Assembly: GCA_021324295.1 (NCBI GenBank)
Contig: JAJPJJ010000109.1
Span: 1-39,233 of the forward strand
Source: Bacillota bacterium
GTDB taxonomy: Bacteria > Sysuimicrobiota > Sysuimicrobiia > Sysuimicrobiales > Segetimicrobiaceae
DNA length: 39,233 nucleotides
Reading direction: 5' to 3'
The translations under genes were made by a program, and so were the position numbers. Below, in pieces: positions 26,403 through 36,317 of the stretch (the first letter of the stretch is position 1; every line of letters starts with the position of its first letter). Under the pieces are notes generated by a model. That model did no database searches. It saw nothing but the letters and a program-made list of their open reading frames with translations, and had not been told where the DNA came from.

Positions 26403-27512
26403 CTACGGGGGAGCCCCTTCCCGCGCGAGGAGGGCGCGCTTGCGGTCCAGGCCCCAGCGGTAGCCGCCCAGGCCGCCATCGCCCCGGACGACGCGGTGGC
26501 AGGGGATCACGAGCGCGACGGGGTTGGCGGCGCACGCCCTCGCCACGGCCCGCGCGGCCGCCGGCCGGCCCAGGGCGCGCGCAACCTCCCCGTACGATCG
26601 CGTGGCGCCGTAGGGAATCGCGCGCAGCGCCTCCCACACCTGCCGCTGGAACGCGGTCGCCTGGATGTCCAGCGGCAGCGCCAGACGGGGAGCCTGCCCG
26701 TGCAGGTAACGCATCAGCGCCGCGACCCAGCGCCCGAGCCCCTCGTCGTCCCTGCGCACCTCGGCCGACGGGTACTCCGCCCGCAGCGCGGCTTCGAGGG
26801 GCGGGTCCGCGTCGCCGAGGCTGACGGCGCACAGACCCCGCTCGGTCGCCGCGACGAGCAGCCGCCCGAGGGGGGAGGCGGTGATCGTGTAGGCGATCCG
26901 CATCCCTCGCCCGCCTCGCCGGTAGGCGCCCGGCGTCATCCCCAGATGCCTGGGCGCGCGCTCGTACAAGCGGCTGCTCGAGCCGAAGCCGGCGTCGTAG
27001 AGGGCACGCGTCACCGCCTCCTGGGCGCGCAGCCGCGCCCGGAGCAGGTTCAGCCGGCAGGCATCGGCGTACCCGCGCGGGGTGATCCCCAGCAGGCGCA
27101 CGAAGAGGCGGCGCAGCGCGCGGGGGGTACGGCCCGCGTGGTCCGCGACCGCCGCCAAGCTCAGCGGCCCGTCCAGGTGCGCCTCGATATACCGGCAGGC
27201 CCGCTCGACCACCGCGGCCCGCGGATCCCCCACCTCGCGCGGCCGGCATCGCCGGCACGGCCGGAATCCGGCCCGCTCCGCGTCCGCGGGTCGCCGGAAG
27301 AACACGACCTGTGCCCGGCGCGGCCGCCGGGCCGGGCACGACGGCCGGCAGTACACGCCCGTCGAGCGAACGCCGAAGACAAAGGCTCCGTCGGCGCGGG
27401 CGTCGCGGGTCAGCACCGCGCGCCACCGCAGGTCCTCCCTCCCGTCCCGCACCTTGAGCGCCGGCTGGGGAGCCGCCCGCGCCTCGCTCGTGAGCATCTG
27501 CGCCGTCTCCAT
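26403..27512 (-). CDS. ada: Bifunctional Ada: methyl-phosphotriester sensor and O6-methylguanine-DNA methyltransferase
   Basis: 369 residues with the full Ada order. An N-terminal zinc site, Cys55, Cys59, Cys86 and Cys89, takes methyl groups from DNA phosphotriesters. An AraC-type helix-turn-helix spans roughly residues 100-200. A C-terminal Ogt domain carries acceptor Cys338 in IPCHRVV. Methylation of the N-terminal Cys turns such proteins into activators of their own operon. The ATG at 27512 has GAGGGGTGA eight bases upstream; a GTG nine bases earlier is possible. The alcohol dehydrogenase downstream may belong to the same adaptive response, for instance in aldehyde detoxification. Confidence 0.95.
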   Translation of the reverse strand: METAQMLTSEARAAPQPALKVRDGREDLRWRAVLTRDARADGAFVFGVRSTGVYCRPSCPARRPRRAQVVFFRRPADAERAGFRPCRRCRPREVGDPRAAVVERACRYIEAHLDGPLSLAAVADHAGRTPRALRRLFVRLLGITPRGYADACRLNLLRARLRAQEAVTRALYDAGFGSSSRLYERAPRHLGMTPGAYRRGGRGMRIAYTITASPLGRLLVAATERGLCAVSLGDADPPLEAALRAEYPSAEVRRDDEGLGRWVAALMRYLHGQAPRLALPLDIQATAFQRQVWEALRAIPYGATRSYGEVARALGRPAAARAVARACAANPVALVIPCHRVVRGDGGLGGYRWGLDRKRALLAREGAPP

Positions 27513-28032
27513 GGCCGTCACCCCTCGCTCATCCTAGAGGGGCGGCGGCCCTGGGTCTATCCGGTTTGGGCCCTCAAACCCGTACCGCAGCTTGGCCCCG
27601 CGCCCCGCGCACCGCACGATCGCCGCGGAGCCGGATCAGGTCACCGCGACGAACGGAACCTCGGCGCTGGCGCTCACGGTAAACCGGTCCGCATGCCCTG
27701 GATGCCACGCGCCGGCACCCCACCACAAGGTCCCGCGCCTGCGCGTTCGCGATCGCCGGGCCGATGCCCTGCGGCGGGCTCTTCGAGGCGGAGCCGCGCG
27801 GATCGCCATCCCGCCGGCGCCACCGGTGCGCCACGTCCGCCCCCATCCAGGACGGCAGGCGCATGGCGGCCGCGGCCCACCCGGCGCGCGGACGACAGCC
27901 GACGGTCGGATCGGCCTGGGACCCGCTCTCGGAGCACGCGCGGCCCGCCGGGCACGGGAGGACCCCGCCCCCGACGGGTGAAATGAACCACGAGATCGGC
28001 AAGGCGCGCTGGTCCGCGAGGGGATGAGGCGT
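27513..28032. other. Gene-free region of 520 bases
   Basis: Several long frames are open on both strands because of GC richness, but none shows a recognisable domain, a consistent ribosome site or protein-like composition. A six-base hairpin (GGTTTG with CAAACC) lies near 27570-27590. A 14-codon frame starting at 27973 and ending next to the downstream start is too short and poorly preceded to call. This looks like decayed or regulatory DNA between the divergent ada and secreted-protein genes. Confidence 0.45.
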
Positions 28033-31456: not shown

Positions 31457-32992
31457 GTGCGGTCGGCGACGAGAGCGTTGTACCACCGATGGAAGAGGGC
31501 CCTGGCGCGCGCCGGGGTCCGCCTTGTCTGCGCGGCGCTGCTCTGCGTGCTCGTCGCAGCAGACCTGCCATCGATTCTGTCGGCGCAGGGCGCGCCGCCG
31601 TCCGGCGGCGCGCCGGGGTATTTCCGCGTGGAGGAACGCGACGGCATCTGGTGGGTGATCGACCCCTCGGGTTCGCCCACGCTTTCGATCGGAGTCGACA
31701 ACATCGCCTACGAAGGCGACCGCATCCGGGGAACCGGGCCGTCCCCGTACCTAGCCGCGGCGGAGACGCGTTACGCGAGCCGGAACGCGTGGGTCAGGAC
31801 AGCCGTACAGCGCCTCCGCGAGTGGGGCTTCAACACGCTCGGCGCATGGTCCGACCAGGAGTTGTGGAGCGAGGGCATGCCGTACACGATCATCCTCGAT
31901 TTCGCTGCCCGGGCGGGCGCCGACTGGTTGCGCGGGCAGCCGCCCGACGTGTACGATCCCCGCTTCGCGCAGACGGCGCGCGAGATCGCGGAGGCGGAGG
32001 CCGCACCGCGTGCCGACGACCGCCTGCTGATCGGCTACTTCAGCGACAACGAGCTGTGGTGGGGGCCTGACTGGCGCAGGACCGGTACGATGCTGGCGAC
32101 GTACCTCGCGCTGCCGGCCGGCGCGCCGGGGCGGCAGCGTGCGATCGAGTTCCTCCGCCAGCGGTACGGCGGCGACATCCGCGCGCTGAACCGGGCCTGG
32201 CGCACCGCGGCCAAGGACTTTGCTCATGTGCCGCTGTGGAGCGACGCGCCCGCCTATCAGATCGACGCCGATCGGTTCCTCGAGATGGTCGCGACGCGGT
32301 ACTTCACCGTCTCGGCCGGGGCCATCCGCGCCGCCGACCCGCACCACCTCTATCTCGGCGCTCGCTTCGGCGGGATCCCGCCCGACCCGGTCCTCCGGGC
32401 TGCCCGCGTCGCCGATATCGTGTCGATCAACCTCTACAGCCGCGACCCGCGGGCGGCCGTCCGCCACGTGTACGCGCGGACGCACCGGCCGGTCCTGGTC
32501 ACCGAGTTCTCGTTCCGGGCGCTGGACTCGGGGCTGCCCAACACGCACGGCGCTGGCCCGTGGGTCTTCAATCAGCGCACCCGGGCGTGGGCCTACGCCG
32601 CGTACGTGGCGCGGCTGGAGAGCCTTCCCGAGGCGGTCGGCTATCACTGGTTCAGGTGGGCGGACGAGCCGAAAGAGGGCCGGTCCGATGGCGAGAACTC
32701 AAACTATGGCCTCGTGAGGCTGGACGACACGCCCTACGCCGCGTTCGTTGCGACGGTGCGGGCGGTCAACCAGTCGGCCATCGAGGTCCACCGCGGCGTC
32801 CGTAGCCAGCTCGCCGTGAGAGCCGCGTCCTGGTGGCACTGGTGGAGCTTCCGGGACATCATCGGGGCGCTGCTCGGCGCGCCTCGATGGGTCACGACGG
32901 CGGTGCGGACCGTGAGGGCCTTGTTGAAGCAGTCGCCGCGGGTGGCCTCCTTCTGGGGGCCGCTCTCCTCGTGCATGACCTCCGCAGTCTGA
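31457..32992 (+). CDS. Secreted glycoside hydrolase-like protein (clan GH-A type, agarase/beta-galactosidase-like)
   Basis: 511 residues. A basic start and hydrophobic run (VRLVCAALLCVLVAADLPSI) form a signal peptide. The TIM-barrel body carries the clan-A pair: acid/base Glu199 in IGYFSDNELWWGP and nucleophile Glu350 in VLVTEFSFRA. The RLREWGFNTLGAWSDQEL segment also matches beta-agarase-like (GH42/50/86-type) proteins. A late hydrophobic helix and amphipathic tail (residues 455-500) may anchor it. GGGGGGAG lies five bases before the GTG start. The likely role is outside the cell on a polysaccharide; the sugar is not determined. Confidence 0.85.
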   Translation: MRSATRALYHRWKRALARAGVRLVCAALLCVLVAADLPSILSAQGAPPSGGAPGYFRVEERDGIWWVIDPSGSPTLSIGVDNIAYEGDRIRGTGPSPYLAAAETRYASRNAWVRTAVQRLREWGFNTLGAWSDQELWSEGMPYTIILDFAARAGADWLRGQPPDVYDPRFAQTAREIAEAEAAPRADDRLLIGYFSDNELWWGPDWRRTGTMLATYLALPAGAPGRQRAIEFLRQRYGGDIRALNRAWRTAAKDFAHVPLWSDAPAYQIDADRFLEMVATRYFTVSAGAIRAADPHHLYLGARFGGIPPDPVLRAARVADIVSINLYSRDPRAAVRHVYARTHRPVLVTEFSFRALDSGLPNTHGAGPWVFNQRTRAWAYAAYVARLESLPEAVGYHWFRWADEPKEGRSDGENSNYGLVRLDDTPYAAFVATVRAVNQSAIEVHRGVRSQLAVRAASWWHWWSFRDIIGALLGAPRWVTTAVRTVRALLKQSPRVASFWGPLSSCMTSAV

Positions 32993-33255
32993 GGGGGTGG
33001 CAGCGAGACGGGTCGGCCGTGGGGGCGCCCCGCGCTTCCGGTAGGAACGGCGTCCCACCCCGACGAATCGCGGGAGCACGGCGATTCGCTGGCGGTCCCG
33101 AAAGAGCGCGCCGGGCGGGCCCCCGCGGCCCCTCCTGGAAGGGGCGCGACGCCGCAGCGCGGTCGCGTCTCCCGGCGCCCTTCGTCCCCTCCCGCCGAAC
33201 CTCTGCGAGGTGCCACCGGCACGGCACGGGACGACCCCCCGCCGCCCGTGAGCCG
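32993..33255. other. Convergent intergenic region carrying repeat copy 2
   Basis: 263 bases between the glycosidase and the Gp157 gene stop. It is dominated by the structured repeat at 33021-33124. No gene is supported, and no T-rich terminator is seen. Confidence 0.5.
33021..33124. repeat. Structured repeat element, copy 2
   Basis: Outer inverted ends GGGGGC (33021-33026) and GCCCCC (33119-33124) match the ends of copy 1. The inner hairpin is GAATCGC (33065-33071) with GCGATTC (33081-33087) and a nine-base loop, preceded by CCCACCCCGAC. Compared with copy 1, the innermost differing pair changes from C-G to A-T on both sides, keeping the stem. Confidence 0.75.
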
Positions 33256-33804
33256 CTACCGGATGATGACGTACGGCTTGCGCTCCAGCCTGACGCCCGC
33301 CACCTGCTGGCCGTCCCTGAGGGCCTTCCTGAGACCCTCCCTGTCGGGCTCCGGTTCTCGCGGCCGCAGGAAGGCCGCCGGGAGGCCGCCCGGGTCGCAA
33401 TCGATCACGACCGCCTCGGCCTCCGCGAGATACACCGTGTAGTCATCGCCGTCGAGCTTCCGGACGCCCCGGGCCAGGAGGTGCTCGGCCATCCGGTCCC
33501 TGAGGCGCGTCGCCATCGCGAGCCGCGATCGCACCTTGAGCGTGAGCGCGCGCGCGCGCTCCGCGAACAGCTCGGCCTCCTTCTCCAGACGGCTCACGAC
33601 CCAGCCGTACGCGTCGATCTTCTCCAGGACGGCGTCGTCGAGCGTCGCGAGGCGCGCCTGCTGCGCGGGCGTGAGCTCGCCGCCTGAGGCTTCGATCTCG
33701 TCCAGGAGGGCCTTGCGCTCGGCCTCGAGGTCGTACAGCGACCGCCGCTCGTCACCCGAGGCCGGCGCCACGTCGACCGGTGCGCCATCCCGCATCGTCA
33801 CCAT
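33256..33804 (-). CDS. Siphovirus Gp157 family protein
   Basis: 182 residues, largely helical. The family pattern is visible: LYDLEAERKALLDEIEASGG near the N-terminus, a VLEKIDAYGWVVSRLEKEAE coiled region, then ALTLKVRSRLAMATRLRDRM, and a small beta-rich C-terminal part (LERKPYVIIR). Gp157-type genes occur in phage replication/recombination clusters, usually next to a single-strand annealing protein, as here. The ATG overlaps the upstream stop by one base (TAATG) and has AGGAGG upstream. It is co-transcribed from the LexA-box promoter at 35.1 kb. Confidence 0.85.
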   Translation of the reverse strand: MVTMRDGAPVDVAPASGDERRSLYDLEAERKALLDEIEASGGELTPAQQARLATLDDAVLEKIDAYGWVVSRLEKEAELFAERARALTLKVRSRLAMATRLRDRMAEHLLARGVRKLDGDDYTVYLAEAEAVVIDCDPGGLPAAFLRPREPEPDREGLRKALRDGQQVAGVRLERKPYVIIR

Positions 33805-34793
33805 TACCGCTCCTCCTTGGCGTCCCTGCTGGCGCGCACGATGCCTGCGAGCTCGCGCGCAAGCTCGGCACTCTCGGCGGCCGTCAGACGCCCTAGGTCG
33901 TCCGTGCCAAACATCCGCCGGCATGCCCGCGCGAGCGCGGCGTCATCCCACTGCAGCGCGGCGACGGCCCGCTGGATCCGGTCCGCCGCTCCGGCCTCAC
34001 CCTGCGGTGCGTCGATCGCCGCCAGCCCGCTCGCGAGCTCGTCGGTGGGCGTCTTCTGCAACAGCGTGATGATCTCGGACGCCCGTGCCTCCGTGAGCTC
34101 TCCGGTGGACGAGACCTGGTAGCGGTGCGCGATCCACCGGCGGAGCGCCTCTTCGGGGAGCTGGTGCTTCCCCTTCCACAGCGAGTGGATCAGCCTCCGC
34201 TGCGGGAGCGATGCCATGCGCGGCGCCGCCGGGGGCGTCGGGCCGGCCGAGGGGCCGGCCTCCGGTGCCGCGCTCGCCTCGTCGGGACGCGGCCCGCTCT
34301 CGTCCTCGTCGTGGACCGTCTCCGCCTCGGTCTCGTCCAGCCACCCGAGGCCGCAGATGCTGAGCGTCACGCGCCGCTTCGCCTTCGTTTCGCACTTCAT
34401 GATCGCGTTGGCCAGCGCATCGCCCTTGAGGTTGGCGATCGAGACCGCCCCGATCGCATCGTCGGTCCGGCCGTCACCATCGCATGCCCGGGCCGTGACG
34501 AGATAGAGGTCGCTGAACTGCTCGCGGCTCGTGATCGTCACGCTGATCCTGCGAAGCCGCCGGAGTTGGTCGGTCGCGTCCCGCTTCGCGTAGAGGACGA
34601 GCTTGCCGTTGAGCGTGATGTAGTCAAAGGGGCGGGTGAGCGGGTTGAGCCCCAGCGATTCGCAGACCTGCCGATAGTAGAGCACGCGCTCCGCGGGGGA
34701 GAGCCTGGAGAGATCCCCGCTGAGCAGAACCCGCTCGAGGATCTCGGCCCGGTCGTGATCCCGAGGCGATAGTGCCGCTGCTGGCTCACTCAC
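33804..34793 (-). CDS. Phage-type recombination protein, candidate single-strand annealing protein (RecT/Bet-like)
   Basis: 329 residues. The N-terminal domain shows the pattern of phage annealing proteins: CESLGLNPLTRPFDYITLNG, LVLYAKRDATDQLRRL, then GDALANAIMKCETKAKRR and SICGLGWLDETEAE. A C-terminal segment (SLPQRRLIHSLWKGK to SEIITLLQK) is also found in phage recombination proteins. Such proteins anneal complementary single strands during repair or recombination. The GTG start has GAGGAGG eight bases upstream. The exact family is not certain from sight. No other phage genes lie nearby, so this is either a domesticated pair or a prophage remnant. Confidence 0.78.
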   Translation of the reverse strand: MSEPAAALSPRDHDRAEILERVLLSGDLSRLSPAERVLYYRQVCESLGLNPLTRPFDYITLNGKLVLYAKRDATDQLRRLRRISVTITSREQFSDLYLVTARACDGDGRTDDAIGAVSIANLKGDALANAIMKCETKAKRRVTLSICGLGWLDETEAETVHDEDESGPRPDEASAAPEAGPSAGPTPPAAPRMASLPQRRLIHSLWKGKHQLPEEALRRWIAHRYQVSSTGELTEARASEIITLLQKTPTDELASGLAAIDAPQGEAGAADRIQRAVAALQWDDAALARACRRMFGTDDLGRLTAAESAELARELAGIVRASRDAKEER

Positions 34794-35089
34794 GTTGCTT
34801 GCCTCCTCGCGTCCGGCTGCGCCGCGACGTCTCCGGCGCGCCGCGTCGTCTCTTGCCCGCATCGGCGGGAGCGCCCGGGGGTCGTGCCGGTGCCCCGGGA
34901 GGGTGGCGGGCCGGTCCCGCCCGAGCCCGCGGCGCGTCGGACGCCGGTGAGGGTCGTAGGGCGAGGCGGAAGGGCCCTCGGCGTGGGGATCGTCCTCGCG
35001 GCGCCGGCGCTCCCGCGGCGATCCCGGGGCCGCGCGGGAGCCCCTCCGGTTGCACGGGCGCCCTCGACGCTCTGTGCGCCTACGTGGGC

Positions 35090-35118
35090 ATCATATACCG
35101 AACGCTTGTTCGTGTCAA
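35090..35118 (-). promoter_or_regulatory. Strong sigma-A promoter of the recombination operon
   Basis: On the minus strand a perfect TTGACA (35118-35113), a 17-base spacer, then TATGAT (35095-35090). Transcription should start near 35083. The spacer is occupied by a LexA-type palindrome. Confidence 0.85.
35099..35112. promoter_or_regulatory. LexA (SOS) operator
   Basis: CGAACGCTTGTTCG is a fit to the Gram-positive/actinobacterial LexA box CGAAC-N4-GTTCG. It lies wholly inside the -35/-10 spacer, where bound LexA would block RNA polymerase. It predicts that the annealing-protein and Gp157 genes are induced by DNA damage. Confidence 0.8.
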
Positions 35119-35243
35119 TACCCCGCCGGCCGCTCCAGGCTATGCGGGTCCGCGCGGAAAAACCATCATGGTGCCGACCGCCGGGGAAGGAGCGCGCCGC
35201 GACCCCGTCATGAGACGCGAGCCGCACGATCGCGCGGCAGATC

Positions 35244-36317
35244 ATGCCGCCCCGTAGGCGCCTCCCCCGGCCGCGCCTGCATTGGCTCCTGATCGCGGGT
35301 CCCGCCTCGTGGCTGCTTGCCCTGCTGCCGCATCGGGAGCTGGCGGTCTTCTTGACGTCCGCGATCGCGCTGATCCCGCTCGCCGACCTCATCGGCGCGT
35401 CCACGGAGCAGATCGGCCTCCACGCCGGGCCCCGGGTCGGCGGCCTCCTCAACGCCACGTTCGGGAACCTGACCGAGCTGATCCTCTCGGTGCTGCTGCT
35501 CCTCAACAATCAAGTGAAGGTGGTCAAGACCTCGCTCACCGGGTCGATCCTCGGGAACCTCCTCCTGGTCATGGGGCTGTCGCTGCTTGCGGGCGGCATG
35601 TACCACAGGACGCAACGGTACAACGCCGCCGCCGCCGGGGTCCACGCGACCTCCCTCACGCTCGCCGTGATCGGGTTGCTGATGCCGGCGCTGTTCCTGC
35701 TGACCACCGGCGCGCACAGCGTCATCCAGCGCGAGGTCGTGAGTGCCATCGTCGCCGGGGTGCTCATCGCGGTGTACCTCGCTGCGCTGGTGTTCACGCG
35801 GGTCACCCACGAGCACCTGTTTCGGACGCCGAAGTCCGGGGAGCAGGCCACGTGGCCCCTGCGGACGGCCCTGCTGGTCCTCGCCGGTGCGGCGGTGTTC
35901 GTCGCGGTGGAGTCGGAGCTGCTCGCCCACGCGCTCGCGCCGGCGCTGCGCGCCCTCGGGCTGTCTCAGTTCTTTGTGGGGCTGATCCTCGTACCGATCA
36001 TCGGCAACGCGGCCGAGCACAGCTCGGCCGTGCGGTTTGCGCTCCAGGACAGGCTCGACGTCACGCTGGAGGTGGCGATCGGCTCGTCCACGCAGATCGC
36101 CCTCTTCGTCGCGCCGGCCCTCGTCTTCATCGGCCTCGCCGTCGGGCACCCGATGGACTTCGTCTTCACCAACTTCGAGGTCGCCGCGGTGGGGCTGTCC
36201 ACGCTGATCGTGACCTTTATCTCACACGACGGCCGCAGCAACTGGCTCGAGGGGGCCCAGCTCCTCGCCGCCTACCTCATCATGGCGGCCTCGTCGTTCT
36301 TCATCGGATCGCTCTGA
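35244..36317 (+). CDS. Calcium/proton exchanger (CaxA/ChaA-like)
   Basis: 357 residues with about eleven membrane segments, the normal size for bacterial Ca2+:H+ antiporters. Two inverted repeat motifs carry the transport-site acidic residues: GLLNATFGNLTELI at 67-80 and GNAAEHSSAV near 254-263. It exports Ca2+ (or another cation) in exchange for protons across the cytoplasmic membrane. A basic N-terminus precedes the first helix. No strong Shine-Dalgarno is seen before the ATG. Confidence 0.93.
   Translation: MPPRRRLPRPRLHWLLIAGPASWLLALLPHRELAVFLTSAIALIPLADLIGASTEQIGLHAGPRVGGLLNATFGNLTELILSVLLLLNNQVKVVKTSLTGSILGNLLLVMGLSLLAGGMYHRTQRYNAAAAGVHATSLTLAVIGLLMPALFLLTTGAHSVIQREVVSAIVAGVLIAVYLAALVFTRVTHEHLFRTPKSGEQATWPLRTALLVLAGAAVFVAVESELLAHALAPALRALGLSQFFVGLILVPIIGNAAEHSSAVRFALQDRLDVTLEVAIGSSTQIALFVAPALVFIGLAVGHPMDFVFTNFEVAAVGLSTLIVTFISHDGRSNWLEGAQLLAAYLIMAASSFFIGSL

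Follow-up and report, generated by a model that had tools for sequence, protein, structure and literature searches.

Two open reading frames on the minus strand of the window, by which we mean the whole 39-kb contig analysed here, form an operon that encodes a putative single-strand annealing protein and a Gp157-family protein (Table 1). The first frame starts with GTG and is preceded, across an 8-base gap, by the ribosome site AGGAGG. The ATG of the second coincides with the last base of the first (33804), and its product matched PF05565 with an E value of 3.5e-22 and 79.6 bits (Pfam cut-off 28.6) over positions 2-161 of the 162-position profile, so that the Gp157 gene with a one-base overlap described in an earlier note was recovered exactly. 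Both frames are intact and have good ribosome sites, and their GC3 values (0.88 and 0.93) lie near the host mean of 0.92. Neither an exonuclease nor an SSB is encoded in the operon.

Table 1. Features of the annealing/Gp157 operon and perfect CGAAC-N4-GTTCG sites at other places in the source genome.
Feature	Position	Strand	Basis or remark
-35 hexamer TTGACA	35118-35113	minus	Consensus scan and sequence
Predicted SOS/LexA box CGAACAAGCGTTCG, inside promoter spacer	35099-35112	minus	Matches the LexA regulon motif of the same genome
-10 hexamer TATGAT	35095-35090	minus	Consensus scan
Predicted 5' leader, about 290 nt	34794-35083	minus	Distance from -10 to GTG start
Putative single-strand annealing protein, 329 aa	34793-33804	minus	Fold prediction, GemA match, phage relatives
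RAD52-type domain (predicted), linker, GemA domain	Residues ~10-160 (RAD52-type) and 212-316 (GemA) of the 329-aa protein		
Gp157-family protein, 182 aa	33804-33256	minus	PF05565
Perfect box upstream of dinB	Contig C128		
Perfect box upstream of ruvC-ruvA-ruvB	Contig C24		
Perfect box upstream of dnaB	Contig C7		About 50 bases upstream
Perfect box upstream of radA	Contig C53		
Perfect box upstream of MrfA-like helicase gene	Contig C91		
Perfect box upstream of radical SAM gene	Contig C106		
Perfect box at a less clear place	Contig C73		
Perfect box at a less clear place	Contig C42 (L022:6001-6014)		Right behind a TATAAT hexamer; small ORFs of unknown family follow
Perfect boxes within reading frames	Contigs C47, C62 and C71		Probably chance sites

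The promoter of the operon matches the sigma-70 consensus at 11 of 12 positions, with 17 bases separating TTGACA from TATGAT. It was the sole sigma-70-like site detected by the consensus scan within positions 32900-35500 (0.1 +/- 0.3 in shuffled sequences). The 14-base inverted repeat of CGAAC and GTTCG falls wholly within the spacer, and scan and sequence bore out every coordinate that the earlier note had given for this arrangement. In the whole window GAAC-N4-GTTC was found once, at 35099-35112 (chance expectation 0.17). Both box and promoter are rare by chance, as Markov estimates per window amount to 0.046 for CGAAC-N4-GTTCG and 0.0025 for a promoter of such quality. The predicted leader is GC-rich, and it showed neither an unusual fold (z 0.45) nor an Rfam match.

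The N-terminal domain of the 329-aa protein was not matched by any SSAP model of Pfam, NCBIfam or PHROG, while its C-terminal part matched GemA (PF06252, E 5.7e-10), a domain overlooked in the earlier note. An AF2 model computed with 52 viral relatives in the input reached pLDDT values of mostly 93-98 over residues 30-150. The best Foldseek match was human RAD52 (E 3.8e-4, probability 1.00), and yeast Mgm101 was also among the first; TM-scores to RAD52-type structures were low, at about 0.2-0.26 over the query, a result to which the presence of the separate C-terminal domain in the model contributes. When viral models were searched with Foldseek, unnamed relatives of the protein itself came first, followed by phage ERF, Rad52 and RecT models. 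Among 53 relatives, single members matched RecT-like PHROGs (E 1.9e-6 and 3.4e-4), and one matched bet_lambda marginally (E 0.005). Alignment of 53 sequences revealed a strongly conserved N-terminal domain in which the motif KxxTKAKRRxT is invariant (K133, T136, K137, A138, K139, R140 and R141).

A RAD52-type annealase fold is therefore predicted for the N-terminal domain. Based on the fold match, the invariant motif and the recombination and replication genes that neighbour its relatives (see below), we accept the 329-aa protein as a putative RAD52-superfamily annealing protein belonging to a family without a current model, and it would be expected to anneal single-stranded DNA. The designation as a candidate single-strand annealing gene thus agrees with fold and gene neighbourhood, though not with the SSAP models of Pfam and NCBIfam. 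No experimentally studied member of this protein family was found in the literature.

The Gp157 protein further matched PHROG 253, labelled 'Mu Gam-like end protection' (E 3.6e-20). Its structure model (pLDDT 90) had no match among solved structures (PDB) in the fold search, so that the Gam analogy rests on the PHROG label and on gene context: in phages, erf modules are accompanied by sipho_gp157 or gam genes in an equivalent position (PMC8093625). By this analogy, the protein may act at DNA ends.

The neighbours of the operon in the 39-kb contig are all host-type (DUF3048, Na/Ca exchanger, M19 dipeptidase, VWA, prephenate dehydratase and an Ada-type gene). No integrase, terminase, repressor or any further phage gene was present in the contig, in line with the earlier statement that no other phage genes adjoin. 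Nor were tRNA genes found in the window or an obvious attachment repeat flanking the pair, and a prophage in the window was ruled out on account of these absences and the host-type neighbours. No PADLOC defence model was matched by the pair, and no defence genes adjoin it. A search of the source genome for the terminase-like protein of a related prophage (that of G008, described below), run without a positive control, gave no match. The Ada-type gene, an adaptive response gene at 26403-27521 about 6 kb from the operon, encodes a methyltransferase with an AraC HTH and is not accompanied by an SOS box.

The motif was then related to the SOS regulon of the source genome (129 contigs, 4.02 Mb). 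Perfect CGAAC-N4-GTTCG sites occurred 12 times genome-wide, compared to one site for the reversed control pattern, and an excess was seen in 12 of 12 genomes of the family (5-14 sites versus 0-5 for the control). Besides the perfect sites listed in Table 1, boxes with one mismatch precede lexA (CGAACATCTGTTTG) and recA (CGAACATACGTTTG, in the reading direction of recA). The location between -35 and -10 recurs at recA and at two other sites of this genome. The host LexA, encoded on contig C106 at position 65342, is a full S24-type repressor composed of a DNA-binding domain and an S24 peptidase domain, and the region of its recognition helix presumably resembles that of Bacillus subtilis LexA closely. 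The site of the latter is the same motif as the host box (PMC4551915). The box in the operon promoter is thus, as judged from its sequence, of the same type as those of lexA, recA and repair genes in the same genome. LexA control of the operon is well supported by this comparison, and LexA would be expected to bind the box and to release the operon upon DNA damage. That the host LexA might read another sequence, which would have spoken against the proposal of the earlier note, was ruled out by the domain make-up of LexA and by the boxes at the genome's own repair genes (dinB, ruvCAB, recA, lexA and others).

Several further observations were made in this genome. The dnaB gene of contig C7 (L020:6062-8914) contains an intein that includes a LAGLIDADG domain. 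The same contig encodes a second complete LexA paralogue (L032:5989-6615), whose own promoter lacks a recognisable SOS box. Downstream of the box on contig C42 a new small SOS gene is possible. A phage- or plasmid-like stretch on contig C8 (17966-35965; L033) contains many short co-directional genes, a ribonucleotide reductase gene and a gene for a second RecA, the N-terminus of which resembles a fragment of the DNA polymerase sliding clamp.

Relatives of the annealing protein (34-71% identity) are encoded at 70 loci in IMG/VR. Gene neighbourhoods and upstream boxes were surveyed at 143 other phage and bacterial loci, where the neighbours included SSB (11), DnaB-type (11), YqaJ (8), PD-(D/E)XK (7 and 5) and Gp157 (6) genes, as well as DnaC-type loaders. 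The Gp157 relatives were found by an iterated profile search over these loci; a viral scan with the single Gp157 sequence yielded no confirmed relative. Within the phylum, represented by 43 genomes of one order with the source genus as one genome, the annealing gene was present in two. The second carrier, Bacillota bacterium Centralia_MAG_233 (G008), belongs to the same family and to another genus. It harbours the same annealing-Gp157 pair, its annealing protein being 62-64% identical in the N-terminal part and 37% in the C-terminal tail. The pair is located there among prophage genes (Phage_lysozyme, DnaB and short co-directional genes), with no LexA box upstream. Synteny around the pair is lost in the other genera of the phylum.

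Phage ancestry of the pair is thus evident from sequence comparison. GAAC-N4-GTTC was found upstream at only one of the 143 other loci, a gene of a Chloroflexi MAG (L141), and none of the phage relatives among them had a LexA-type box there. As the box is therefore no general inheritance from phages, it was probably gained at the site in the source genome. A pair residing in a prophage of close relatives had been named as an observation that would count against a captured gene pair. This applies in part: the prophage of G008 is one of the same family, yet of another genus, and its pair lies elsewhere and without the box, which indicates phage origin and does not refute capture. No further isolated pair exists in the 43 genomes of the phylum, so that looking in relatives for such a pair with the box above it gave a negative result; the one comparable case is the isolated gene of the Chloroflexi MAG with its GAAC-N4-GTTC palindrome.

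The reading that we consider probable is that a phage recombination module was captured by the host SOS regulon and serves a host function. A module consisting of the RAD52-type protein with its GemA tail and Gp157 would have come to lie alone behind a promoter of host type. In the undamaged cell, LexA bound between -35 and -10 would block RNA polymerase; DNA damage would lead to RecA filaments and LexA self-cleavage, and the operon would then be expressed alongside recA, ruvCAB and dinB. The annealing protein might pair complementary resected single strands and thereby provide an extra, RecA-independent repair route. Resection would have to be supplied by host nucleases, for example a fusion of UvrD helicase and PD-(D/E)XK nuclease, the gene for which adjoins recA in the source genome. 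Gp157 would probably shield or manage DNA ends and, more speculatively, the GemA tail may serve as a tether to a partner in replication or topology. The pair may in this way benefit its host. Of the 'domesticated, damage-inducible annealing system' of the earlier note, LexA control is well supported by the regulon boxes, while domestication in the sense of being kept for a host function is something we infer, as the gene occurs in two of 43 genomes of the phylum and in a genus of one genome, with synteny lost.

The pair and its promoter might instead be the last relic of a young prophage whose early promoter was repressed by LexA, of no use to the host. This is unlikely in our judgement but deserves weight, since the pair recurs as a module in phages, lies among prophage genes in a genome of the same family and is unique to the source genome within its genus (one genome), and since a promoter of the temperate phage GIL01 is directly LexA-controlled via the same box (PMC4551915). 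A relic is, however, hard to reconcile with two intact frames, with a 39-kb contig devoid of integrase, terminase, repressor, attachment repeat and tRNA, and with the lack of such a box in phage relatives and in the prophage copy of the same family.

As both proteins are phage-type, the pair could also be switched on by damage or infection and act on incoming phage DNA, either interfering or recombining with it, as in superinfection resistance or phage parasitism; according to their Pfam entry, bacterial Gp157 genes reportedly have a link to the phage resistance of Streptococcus thermophilus. The absence of a PADLOC match and of adjoining defence genes, together with a regulatory site that belongs to a DNA-repair regulon, makes such a phage-facing role highly improbable. 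Still less credit is given to a chance palindrome in front of a constitutive or silent operon. Chance sites do occur, as three of the 12 perfect sites of the genome lie inside reading frames, but the one good promoter of the region holds the box in question precisely within its spacer. The low expectations per window for promoter and box are given above, and the layout recurs at recA. Regulon context and statistics thus ruled out a chance box.

A possible parallel to capture by a host regulator was seen outside the phylum. In the uncultured Chloroflexi MAG, the isolated annealase frame (L141, 719-1600) is adjoined by NUDIX and MFS genes, and positions 741-754 lie in a 24-base palindrome (AGGATAGAACTCATGTTCTATCCT) at the 5' end of the annealase gene, with arms AGGATAGAAC-TCAT-GTTCTATCCT (TAGAAC-N4-GTTCTA type). 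AGAAC-N4-GTTCT is plausibly the SOS box of Chloroflexota, given such sites just upstream of a DnaE-type polymerase gene and two Y-family polymerase genes in Tepidiforma flava (G062; L222, L228 and L232). In the MAG itself GAAC-N4-GTTC was not enriched (51 versus 46 in the control) and the narrower AGAAC-N4-GTTCT mildly so (5 versus 1), for which reason a second capture by an SOS-type regulator is suggestive only. Three further loci (L144, L147 and L154) combine the annealase with replication genes and a DnaC-like loader, with hsdM genes adjoining in the first two and an integrase nearby in the third; this context suggests an integrative element that occurs in Chloroflexota and other groups.

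Chromosomal relatives with 44-48% identity were further found in Myxococcales (L186, L195, L197 and L198, in addition to L187, L190-L194 and L196). These loci share neighbours (enoyl-CoA hydratase, an EttA-like ABC-F protein and an AlgH/YqgE protein) and contain no prophage genes, and no SOS box is shared by their upstream regions; they apparently represent an old, fixed domestication. Tentatively, and with less confidence than we place in the capture of the pair described here, the annealase family may have been recruited into chromosomes repeatedly: here with a LexA box and Gp157, in the Chloroflexi MAG with a TAGAAC-N4-GTTCTA palindrome, and, long ago, in Myxococcales, which would provide RecA-independent and partly SOS-switched annealing.

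Annealing proteins are usually regarded as phage tools that bypass RecA. SOS-induced annealing genes outside lambda-like phages are known from the bet-exo genes of SXT/R391 integrative conjugative elements, which differ in that control is exerted via the SetR repressor and the SetCD activator and in being part of a mobile element. For a damage-induced chromosomal RAD52-type protein, DdrA of Deinococcus, induced by a regulator other than a LexA box, is a conceptual precedent by analogy. DdrA (DR0423) is a chromosomal RAD52-like, damage-induced end-protection protein, and loss of ddrA together with recA causes greater sensitivity than loss of one of the two (PMC515370). The protein described here shares with it the RAD52-type assignment, the location on a bacterial chromosome and, as predicted from the box, induction by DNA damage, whereas recent phage derivation is not established for DdrA, which moreover has no Gp157 partner. 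Lambda Red (Exo, Beta, Gam) and phage erf/rad52-ssb modules likewise combine an annealing protein with a Gam- or Gp157-type gene (PMC8093625). In these, gam or sipho_gp157 lies upstream, while Gp157 is downstream in the source operon, which is located outside a phage, lacks exonuclease and SSB genes and has a host LexA box. Promoter P1 of GIL01 resembles the operon promoter in placing phage-type genes under Bacillus LexA via a CGAAC-N4-GTTCG-type site, a control that is predicted here; GIL01, however, is a complete temperate phage needing gp7 (PMC4551915), and no phage is present at the source locus. A LexA-controlled chromosomal pair of RAD52-type and Gp157 genes was not reported in the literature searched, in which subscription journals are thinly covered.

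If the proposed capture is true, the host would gain strand annealing that is timed by the SOS response and independent of RecA. As annealing tolerates short and divergent matches, rearrangements and the uptake of foreign DNA could then rise under stress. The annealase family, which lies outside current family models, could serve genome engineering in GC-rich bacteria, and the operon offers a concrete test case for phage recombination genes turning into host repair genes.
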